From Massilia polaris (GTDB lineage Bacteria > Pseudomonadota > Gammaproteobacteria > Burkholderiales > Burkholderiaceae_D), in the NCBI RefSeq assembly GCF_012927275.1, contig NZ_JABBGG010000007.1:1-64000 (forward strand): 64,000 nt of DNA, read 5' to 3'. A program made the translations under genes and the position numbers. The first letter of the stretch is position 1; each line of letters begins with the position of its first letter. Shown here in pieces: positions 12,975 to 47,476 of this stretch. The notes under the pieces were generated by a model that worked only from the letters and a program-made list of their open reading frames with translations, searched no databases and was not told the DNA's origin.

Positions 12975-13175
12975 ATGGACGTCGCTGCAATCGCAAAATT
13001 ATCGAGCTCGATCGCTGAAACCGGCAACCGCCAGGAAGTGCAGGCTGCTCTCCTCAAGCGCGCCCTGCAGATCGAAGGATCGACCGCCACCCAGCTGATC
13101 GATGCCGTTAAGACAGTGCCATCCGTACAGAACTTGCCTTCGAACCTAGGCAATACCATCAACACGACTGCCTGA
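12975..13175 (+). CDS. YjfB-like putative motility protein
   Basis: The 66-residue protein starts [26 protein letters not shown] and ends in a Asn/Thr-rich tail. The short length and layout fit the YjfB family (putative motility protein), whose role is undefined. CGGAGAACGCC precedes the ATG. It stands alone between mobB and the bufferin locus. Confidence 0.65.
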
Positions 13176-13230
13176 TCGTGCCACGGTTGGAAAACGCGGT
13201 AGAATCCGCCATCCAACCGAGGAGAGTTAC

Positions 13231-13512
13231 ATGAACAAACGTCAAGCCATGATCGCCGCAGCCCTTGCCGGCATGTGCGCAGCGGCCAGCAGCACCGCAT
13301 TTGCCCATAACCACGGTTCCGAAAAAGGTGACAAGGCCGAACAGGAAAAGTGTTTCGGCGTCGCCAAGACCGGCCAGAACGATTGCGCCAGCTCCAACGG
13401 CTCGCACGGCTGTGCCGGCCAGGCCAAGGCCGACAACGATGCGACCGAGTGGAAGTACGTTGCCAAGGGCACGTGCGAGAAGGCCGGCGGCAAACTGCCG
13501 GAGAAGAAGTAA
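13231..13512 (+). CDS. bufA: Bufferin precursor peptide, DUF2282 (BufA1 type)
   Basis: The 93-residue precursor has a Sec signal peptide (about residues 1-25, ending STAFA). Four core cysteines stand at 41, 52, 61 and 82 in the pattern [14 protein letters not shown]...GC...GTCEKAGGK. This matches DUF2282 peptides, recently described as bufferins: exported RiPPs whose cysteines are modified by a DUF692 (MNIO) enzyme and which bind copper. The mature N-terminus carries HNH, a possible metal ligand. GAGGAGAG precedes the ATG. The modifying enzyme is encoded 9 bases downstream. Confidence 0.9.
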
Positions 13513-13521
13513 TTTTCCTCC

Positions 13522-15174
13522 GTGACGCTTGAACAGCGTGCAGGACTGGCGCCGGACATTGCTGCCGGCGTCGGCCTCCGCGTCCCGCATTACCGCGATT
13601 TTCTTGAGCAGCGGCCGAAGGTCGGCTGGCTCGAAGTCCACACAGAAAACTTCCTCGACCGTTCCGGCTGGGACTGGCACGTCCTGACCCAGCTGCGGCG
13701 CGACTATCCGGTCAGCCTGCATGGCGTCGGACTCGGCCTTGGTTCCGCACGCGGATTCTCCGAATCGCACCTTGAGCGCGTCCGCGCGCTGGTCGCCGGC
13801 GTCGAGCCGATGCTGGTGTCCGAGCACCTCTGCTGGGGCGCCACACATGACCGCAACCTGAACGACCTGCTGCCGCTGGCGCTGGATAACGCCGCGCTGG
13901 ACCTGCTGTGCGAGCGGGTGGGGCGCGTGCAGGATGCGCTCGGCCGCCAGCTATTGCTGGAGAACGTCGCGACCTATGTCAGGTTCCGTTCTGACCAGAT
14001 GAGCGAGGCCGAGTTCATGGCGGCGTTGTCGAAGCGGACCGGCTGCCGCCTGCTGCTTGACGTGAACAACCTGTACGTCAACCAGCGCAACCATGGCGAG
14101 GATGCGCTGGCCGCCATCGCCGCGATCGCGCCAGGCAGCGTCGGTGAAATCCATCTTGCGGGACACCTCGCCACGCCCGCAGCCGTTGTCGATCATCACG
14201 GCGCGGCGGTTGCGCCCGAAGTGTGGGAACTGTACAAGGCGGCGCTGGCGCGTTTCGGCCGGCTTCCAACGCTGGTTGAATGGGATACGGACGTGCCCTC
14301 GCTCGATGTGCTGCTGGCCGAAGCGTACAAGGCCGATGAGATCGCCGCCGGGTTCACTCGCCGTGCGGACATTGCCCCGGCGCAGCCCCGTCCGGGCAGC
14401 GGCGCCGCCCATGATGCGCTTGCCGCCAGCCAGGACGCCTTTGCGCGCGCCTTGTTCGATGCAAACGGCGAGGCCGGCGTGCTGGCGCACTTCAGCAGTG
14501 GCGGCGCCGAGCGTTTCGGCCTGTACCGCGGCAACCTTACCGTCACCTGGGACAAGGTCCTGTCCGCCGCCTTTCCGGTCATACGCCAGCTCGTTGGCAA
14601 AGAATTTTTCACCGCGTTGAGCCGCGCCTGCGGCATGGCGTATCCCTCGGCCGACGCCGACCTGAACAATTTTGGCGCTGGCTTCGCCGCCTTCCTCGCC
14701 GATTTCGAGCACGTTGCCCAGTTTCCCTACCTGCCCGACATGGCGCGCTTCGAGTGGGCGCTGCACCGCAATCACTTCGCCCCGGACGCTGGCGCTGTCA
14801 CGGCGGCACAGCTCGGATCGCTCGACCCCGTCCGTTTCGAGCAGGCGTGCGCCAAGCTCCACCCGGCCTGCACCTTGTTCGCCTCCGAGTGGGCGATCAT
14901 CCCGCTGTGGCAGGCGCACCAGCCAGGCAGCGGCATCGCCTTCCCTGAAGACATGTCCAGGCCATCGTTCGGACTGATCGCGCGGCCGCGCTGGAAAAGC
15001 GAAGTCGCGGCAATTCCCGCCGCCGCACATGCCGCATTGAAAGCACTTGATTCGGGAGAAAACTTCGGCGCCGCGCTCGACGCAGCCTTCGCCATCGACG
15101 ACGATGTCGACGTGGCTGCACATTTGGCGCAATGGATCGCGCTGGGTGTGTTCGGTTCGCTGGAAGAAGGGTAG
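13522..15174 (+). CDS. bufBC: Fused bufferin-modifying enzyme: DUF692 (BufB/MNIO) plus DUF2063 (BufC)
   Basis: Residues 1-280 form a DUF692 multinuclear non-haem iron oxygenase. The metal and active-site motifs are complete: WLEVHTENF (E42), [10 protein letters not shown] (H67), SEHLCW (E101, H102), LLENVATY (E147), [10 protein letters not shown] (D180, N182), EIHLAGH (H211, H215) and LVEWDTDVP (E253, D255). After a short Pro/Gly linker (281-300), residues 301-550 match DUF2063 ([36 protein letters not shown]), normally a separate protein, BufC. BufB modifies precursor cysteines and BufC recruits the precursor. Start is GTG at 13522, with GGAG rather far upstream. No DoxX-type gene is in the window. 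Confidence 0.9.
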
Positions 15175-47115: not shown

Positions 47116-47476
47116 TGGTGGAGGCGGCGGGAATCGAACCCGCGTCCGCAAGCACTCTACAGACAGTTCTACATACTTAGCACTGCCATTTAATTTAACC
47201 CTGACAACGCGGACGTGCACGCTGTGCCAAGGCGAGTTACCTATTATTTAGTCTGATACTAAGTAACCCAGCATCGGACGAGTCCCTGTAAATGACTCTA
47301 GAGCTTTTGACGGCCCACCCCAGGGACGAGGTGTTCTAGAGCTAGCAGCAATTAAGCTGCGAGTGCGTACGAGTTATCGTTTGCAGTTATTAATTTTCTG
47401 GATGTATTTACGAGGTAACCAGTCCTCGGTATGCCCTGCGCTGCTTTGCAACCCACGTCGAAACCAGGTCGCCCCC
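47116..47476 (-). ncRNA. ssrA: Transfer-messenger RNA (tmRNA), one-piece
   Basis: On the minus strand the 5' end GGGGGCGACCTGGTTTCGAC and the 3' end GGTTCGATTCCCGCCGCCTC plus an encoded CCA form the tRNA-Ala-like domain. The resume codon and tag run at 47352-47384: GCA then AACGAT..., encoding ANDNSYALAA and TAA. At 361 nt it is a normal length. It rescues stalled ribosomes with SmpB and tags the product for proteolysis. No smpB gene is in the window. Confidence 0.97.

Follow-up and report, generated by a model that had tools for sequence, protein, structure and literature searches.

The 64,000-nt stretch of Massilia polaris DNA analysed here (hereafter the window) contains what we take, with a probability of roughly 0.8, to be a Buf1-type bufferin operon with a single-chain maturase, in which the MNIO enzyme BufB and its partner BufC are naturally tethered one to one. 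The open reading frames and searches of Pfam and NCBIfam confirm the original prediction of a DUF2282 precursor gene followed by one gene for a joined BufB-BufC protein (Table 1), with 9 nt between the stop codon of bufA and the GTG start of the fused gene, bufBC. Neither a stop nor a frameshift interrupts residues 280-300, where the two parts meet, and the same joined frame is found in many other loci.

Table 1. Features of the bufferin locus (positions in the window)
Feature	Position	Strand	Basis or remark
Candidate promoter-like site, GTGCCA, 16 nt, TAGAAT (9/12)	13178..13205	+	upstream of bufA
bufA, DUF2282 (Buf1-type) bufferin precursor, 93 aa, ATG start	13231..13512	+	ORF, Pfam
BufA Sec-type signal peptide (putative), residues 1-25	13231..13305	+	cleavage AFA/H, by eye
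bufBC, single 550-aa protein, MNIO (BufB) plus DUF2063-RRE partner (BufC), GTG start	13522..15174	+	
MNIO/DUF692 domain, residues 15-275	13564..14346	+	Pfam, residue alignment
Inter-domain linker, residues 276-303 (28 residues)	14347..14430	+	fast evolving, without in-frame ATG
DUF2063 domain (first half of the BufC/PME-type-1 part), residues 304-392	14431..14697	+	Pfam
C-terminal RRE-like domain (putative), residues 393-550	14698..15171	+	assigned mainly via relatives

The N-terminal part of BufBC is recognized by the Pfam model MbnB_TglH_ChrH (residues 15-275, E = 2.1e-98) and exceeds the cut-off of the NCBIfam model MNIO_BufB (NF050167, 352 bits versus 310); among PDB profiles, it matches 3BWW, the 8HCI set (DUF692 protein) and MbnB chains. 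The match to DUF2063 foreseen for residues 301-550 was found at residues 304-392 (PF09836, E = 8e-17, 61.7 bits versus a cut-off of 27.2), whereas residues 393-550 lie outside the Pfam model. The C-terminal region is of the right length for a full RRE-type domain of the PME-type-1 kind; its match to HvfC, an RRE maturation protein, is partial and below the NCBIfam cut-off (residues 329-465, E = 2e-6), and longer matches, also below the cut-off, were obtained for relatives (residues 307-528, 3e-12, in L026 and 336-536, 1.7e-15, in L092). Matches to NGO1945_C are weak, reaching E<=0.1 in nine of 40 members, the window protein not among them, and the PDB profiles returned a weak match of the BufC part to 3DEE (E 0.075) beside one to FliF (0.65). 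We read residues 304-550 as a PME-type-1 partner, the assignment of its RRE half resting mainly on the relatives. BufA matches DUF2282 with E = 1.2e-22 (80 bits versus a cut-off of 22.4) and gave no NCBIfam match at E<=1. It contains five cysteines, at positions 16, 41, 52, 61 and 82; the last four form the core that had been predicted, while Cys16, which lies within the signal peptide (13276-13278), had been omitted.

Known bufB and bufC genes had been thought to be separate, which fits the literature passages we drew on; within the bacterial family, however, the fusion turned out to be common. A search for further DUF692-DUF2063 fusions found a single, nearly full-length and unbroken match to both domains in at least 144 of 392 sampled family genomes (counted by hand): some match was present in 268 genomes, and among the 147 matches listed, one genome each, 144 are free of stops and span almost the entire query, two contain one stop and one covers 7-426. 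Within the genus, 15 of 16 genomes have a nearly full-length single match, and in the sixteenth (G006, 48% complete) it is broken. Ten of 43 further family genomes are single-match as well (G017, G018, G019, G036, G040, G048, G052, G053, G058 and G059), while the genes of G033 and G055 (L038, L034) gave two matches each, yet they too are fused and have long linkers. The best 80 loci from the scan of named genomes include fused genes from Massilia, Duganella, Rugamonas, Janthinobacterium, Pseudoduganella, Herbaspirillum, Herminiimonas and Telluria, and separate genes from Paraburkholderia, Burkholderia, Undibacterium, Solimicrobium and some metagenome bins. These neighbours would place the window in the Massilia group of Oxalobacteraceae. 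From a class-wide survey of 369 genomes, 29 other loci were taken by score, so that the five fused among them (with 23 separate and one partial) are not to be read as a frequency; these five belong to three other families (L135; L139, L142 and L143; L140) and all possess both Pfam domains. The 20 plasmid records listed out of 351 are all from Burkholderia glumae, where the annotation shows two proteins. A fused gene from a record titled Acidobacteria (L085) groups with the fusions of Oxalobacteraceae, which suggests a binning error or transfer. At L036, in a 48%-complete genome of the same genus, an otherwise fused-like gene is broken by a frame change that may be an error or decay. Altogether, the fusion is a real, conserved and probably recurrent variant of the known bufferin system. 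The counts of 105 fused and 47 separate loci used below include the window and its near-copies, exclude L007 and L008 (the two other loci of the M. polaris genome) and treat L036 as separate; L134, a copy of the window, was left out, and L104 and L163 were dropped as having one domain only.

The linkers of 92 distinct fused sequences are 17-100 residues long (median 32, i.e. 96 nt), and at the separate loci the gap between the two domains amounts to 37-183 nt (median 64). In all 18 separate pairs examined (L007, L008 and 16 from other genomes) a possible start of bufC precedes the stop of bufB, in another frame. On the other hand, the two frames are in register at six of 48 separate loci (L136, L137, L138, L141, L145 and L147), and joining would therefore have been a frame shift in some lineages and a stop loss in others. 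A scheme in which fusion always proceeds by a frame shift, followed by growth of the linker, is ruled out by these six loci and by the gaps that are already 37-183 nt long. At L147 the in-register frames are 27 nt apart; at the other five a single stop parts bufB from bufC, and its loss alone would fuse them. We also considered an internal start that would yield free BufC, and rejected it: an in-frame ATG occurs in the linker of 35 of the 92 distinct sequences, in many of them near the end of the MNIO domain, so it is not conserved, and there is none in the window.

The number of origins was approached with trees made by a 'quick' method from chosen rows, 78 for the MNIO domain (35 fused, 43 separate) and 59 for the joined domains and for BufC (29 fused, 30 separate); L135, L139, L142 and L143 entered the MNIO tree only and were outside the AU test. 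The fused state requires six changes on the MNIO tree, of which at least three are forced by starred branches, against about 26 in shuffles; on the joined-domain tree it requires four, at least three of them forced, and on the BufC tree five. In the joined-domain tree 25 fused rows come together in a main group, with a support of 89 (not starred). A clade of all 29 fused rows was rejected (p-AU 2e-66), a clade of the main group with L032 and L033 was not rejected (p-AU 0.617) and the addition of L037 to the main group was borderline (p-AU 0.041). The rejection of a single clade is in itself compatible with one gain and later losses; however, a single gain at the common ancestor would require 13 losses on the 59-row joined tree as opposed to four changes in all, so that several gains are simpler. 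At least two gains are likely (in the main group and at L140) and there were probably more, the number being unsure given the quick method and long branches. The row nearest to the fused L140 is L137, whose frames are parted by one stop. Within the main group, only one of the tree rows, L035, could represent a reversal.

Selection was estimated as dN/dS by the method of Nei and Gojobori, with our own script, for the window, L010, L011 and L012. Among the first three the values are 0.09-0.13 for MNIO, 0.13-0.17 for the BufC part and 0.67-1.16 for the linker; against L012 they are 0.13-0.16 for MNIO and 0.22-0.25 for the partner. Thus, both domains are under purifying selection and the linker evolves much faster, although its freedom from constraint is not established, because the linker value against L012 is 0.32 for the window (with synonymous change near saturation; the other two pairs are saturated). 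Of 12 candidate metal-site and neighbouring positions, 11 are invariant among the 105 fused MNIO domains and have the same residue in 48 or 49 of the 49 separate domains, in agreement with the prediction that the metal-site motifs of DUF692 are intact. The remaining position, His215, is conserved in 103 of the 105 fused domains and in 38 of the 49 separate ones. H67, H102, E147, D180, N183, H211, D224, H226 and E253 are identical at all 105 fused loci. The ligand roles of the mapped positions, except those that correspond to N175, D242 and H244 of HvfB, are presumed here. The mapping is based on alignment to 3BWW and MbnB and on the residues named for HvfB in the consulted passages of PMC13419390. 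Judging from these residues, BufBC would be an active enzyme.

At 103 of 105 fused loci, as compared to 39 of 47 separate ones, a bufA gene precedes the MNIO domain by at most 400 nt; the exceptions among the fused loci are L032, where the distance is 414 nt, and L140, with no bufA in the fetched stretch. All 104 bufA genes found at fused loci encode the four-Cys spacing that was searched for. Genes for DoxX, an ECF sigma factor and NrsF are frequent, but not defining, neighbours of Buf1 clusters. The window was predicted to lack a linked DoxX-type partner, and one query (DoxX of L008) indeed found none at E<=1 within its 64 kb. The accompanying description of the locus as minimal holds only locally and not as a trait of the fusion, because a DoxX homologue follows the fused gene at 40 of 105 fused loci (29 of 47 separate loci have one; the flanks compared differ in length), in the cases listed on the same strand and directly after the partner. 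With no DoxX found beside it, a role of the window locus in copper would be suggested by its family. Downstream of bufBC, on the opposite strand, are genes for a DUF883 protein, a protein with an S4 domain and a fumarase. Directly 5' of bufA is a frame for a small YjfB-like putative motility protein (12975-13175), and by eye a similar frame precedes the fusion of L034. In an alignment of eight sequences, the second hexamer region of the candidate promoter, itself a weakly supported site, is shared by the window, L010, L011 and L012. An operator-like inverted repeat upstream of bufA (13181-13191/13212-13222) was discarded, its left arm not being conserved in L010. Elsewhere in the window there is a tmRNA gene (47116-47476, minus strand) with the tag DNSYALAA.

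The M. polaris genome (4.52 Mb in 30 contigs) has three matches each to MNIO, DUF2063 and DUF2282 at E<=0.001, and each of its three loci contains one match of every kind. The other two, L007 and L008, resemble the window in having a BufB above the MNIO_BufB cut-off together with DUF2063 and DUF2282 matches; they differ in that bufB and bufC are separate, overlapping frames, and their MNIO domains are 43% identical to that of the window. L007 (288-3564) combines a Buf1-type (DUF2282) precursor with a BufA2-type one (NF050166, 82.6 bits versus a cut-off of 60), with an alpha/beta hydrolase between the two precursors and one separate BufB/BufC pair. At L008 (4143-4859) a DoxX gene is situated between bufA and a frame that by eye is hydrolase-like.

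Could the single chain be an artefact? An assembly or sequencing error that joins neighbouring genes is easy to envisage where a possible bufC start precedes the bufB stop in another frame, or where, as at five of the six in-register loci, one wrong base would remove the only stop, and L036 exemplifies the opposite error-like event, a break in a fused-like gene. However, the 92 distinct fused sequences come from many assemblies and purifying selection acts on both domains within a single frame, which leaves this explanation with almost no chance of being right. It is also very improbable that BufBC is a relative without activity or with a regulatory role. Its GTG start is not preceded by an obvious ribosome-binding site (by eye) and its expression may be low, but the metal-site residues are kept, dN/dS is low in both domains and the precursor gene is close by at nearly all the fused loci.

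Two further explanations were considered. The fusion may be neutral, a gene boundary lost by chance and without benefit between BufB and BufC proteins that are translationally coupled and meet one to one in any case. Most of the fused rows do fall into one group, this group can be united with L032 and L033, the linker is weakly constrained, and the small overlaps and single stops seen elsewhere make joining an easy mutation. Against this speak the rejected single clade and the 13 losses that one gain would entail versus four changes, the fused frames in three other families, and the scarcity of reversals, with L035 as the sole candidate; we regard neutrality as unlikely, albeit with an appreciable residual chance. 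Alternatively, tethering might insulate the pair from cross-talk with paralogous BufB and BufC proteins of the same cell, such as those of the two separate bufferin systems of M. polaris. This idea is weakened by the occurrence of the fusion without a visible paralogue, as the fused locus is the single match (E<=0.001) in four of 16 genomes of the genus (G003, G005, G013 and G015; G013 is 81% and G015 91% complete), and we consider it rather improbable.

The preferred reading, a Buf1-type operon with a naturally tethered maturase, can be compared with what is described in the parts of six papers that were covered (PMC12452194, PMC13097082, PMC13419390, PMC12710340, PMC13174530 and PMC12257519). 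Buf1 clusters (BufA1, BufB1, BufC1) share with the window locus a DUF2282 precursor with a Sec signal peptide and four cysteines, a BufB-type MNIO and a PME-type-1 partner after it; in their usual layout, according to the same passages, the partner is a separate protein, whereas in the window BufB and BufC form one chain of 550 residues (PMC12452194). We regard the window locus as a variant of the Buf1 cluster and not an outsider, despite its fused partner. The passages of PMC12452194 give an MNIO-nitroreductase and several bufferin-domain fusions and no MNIO-DUF2063 fusion, and a natural one was not found in the covered parts of the MNIO and bufferin literature, although supplementary tables or subscription papers may list one. 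The closest counterpart is artificial: in the sections of PMC13419390 that we used, HvfB is active only with HvfC, the pair binds weakly, and a zero-linker fusion of the two, reported in 2026, is highly active and gives more product than the coexpressed pair. That fusion also contains more of the mixed-valent Fe(II)/Fe(III) form, whose signal appears only with the partner (PMC13419390). The domain order is the same, the C-terminus of the MNIO being joined to the N-terminus of the PME-type-1 partner; unlike the natural protein of the window, with its 28-residue linker and DUF2282 precursor, the HvfBC fusion is laboratory-made, lacks a linker and acts on an EGKCG-repeat precursor (PMC13419390). 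MovX, as described there, is another natural protein in which an MNIO is covalently joined to a domain that recognizes the precursor, but this domain is a C-terminal RRE only, as opposed to the DUF2063 plus RRE-like partner in BufBC (PMC13419390).

By analogy with these relatives, a mode of action can be proposed. The Sec signal peptide of BufA would at the same time be its leader, a dual role that figures in the title of a 2026 paper cited in PMC13419390. The C-terminal BufC part (DUF2063 and RRE-like) would bind this leader and dock onto the tethered MNIO, whose Fe(II)/Fe(III) cluster would, with O2, convert Cys52 and Cys61 to 5-thiooxazoles; Cys41 and Cys82 would form a disulphide after export, and the mature periplasmic BufA would bind copper. 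This assignment follows the passages on Buf1 in which the central cysteines are the modification targets and a disulphide links the outer two (PMC12452194), and on bufferins as a group of 5-thiooxazole copper-binding peptides (PMC13097082); BufBC presumably performs the same chemistry as its relatives. With a flexible linker, the BufB:BufC complex would be permanent and one to one, and its activity would therefore be independent of two free chains meeting. Tethering may matter if the separate complex is weak, an argument transferred from HvfBC, a different enzyme.

The precursor offers some evidence on the role of the signal peptide. Residues 1-26 of BufA show no amino-acid change among the window, L010 and L011, at dS values of 0.28-0.46. 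For wider comparisons the BufA starts were chosen by a script rule (L109, for which it found none, was left out) and identities were scored as the best of several offsets. In fused pairs with an MNIO identity of 0.65-0.75, identity amounts to 0.71 in the signal peptide and to 0.33 in the spacer before the core, while the 24 separate pairs in this bin score 0.57 and 0.47, respectively; at 0.55-0.65 the signal peptide scores 0.57 in fused versus 0.35 in separate pairs. The difference is small or reversed in the two closest bins (0.82 versus 0.76 and 0.95 versus 0.97) and small in the widest one (MNIO identity 0.45-0.55), with 0.35 in fused versus 0.30 in separate pairs; there the signal peptide of the fused pairs is hardly above the spacer (0.31), and the two are near-equal in separate pairs too. 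Only 24, 20 and 7 separate pairs fall into the three closer bins, respectively, and their spacer is also more alike there (0.47-0.82). The data fit a second function of the signal peptide as the leader without proving it; such a recognition role is likely on the sequence evidence, while fusion itself as the cause of the conservation is unproven. A cysteine in the signal peptide occurs at 78 of 91 distinct fused loci, in 77 of them at position 16, versus one of 40 separate loci, and this one is L035, the separate-gene neighbour of the main fused group. Cys16 tracks the main fused clade and not the fusion as such, because fused loci outside or at the edge of that group lack it (L033, L037, L085, L135, L139, L142 and L143); it is also missing from six fused rows nearer to the window (L014, L016, L017, L030, L031 and L061). 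As a lineage marker it does not make the loci that carry it independent cases. A more far-reaching proposal, which we put forward as a long shot, is that fusions recurrently lock the MNIO cluster in its partner-dependent active state, and that in the main clade the leader has co-evolved with the fusion, Cys16 taking part in recognition or gating; if so, dissociation of the partner would be removed as a control point.

The natural fusions bear on the question of how its partner activates an MNIO; the weak binding of the HvfB-HvfC pair prompted one group to build its fusion (PMC13419390). The suggestion that a fixed one-to-one complex of enzyme and recruiter would make a useful natural model is supported by our analysis: the natural single-chain proteins, with linkers of 17-100 residues, and the separate-gene paralogues that share a genome with them provide material for structure determination, spectroscopy and comparison of split and fused forms. 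The covalent union of BufB and BufC is evidently tolerated, or favoured, in nature.
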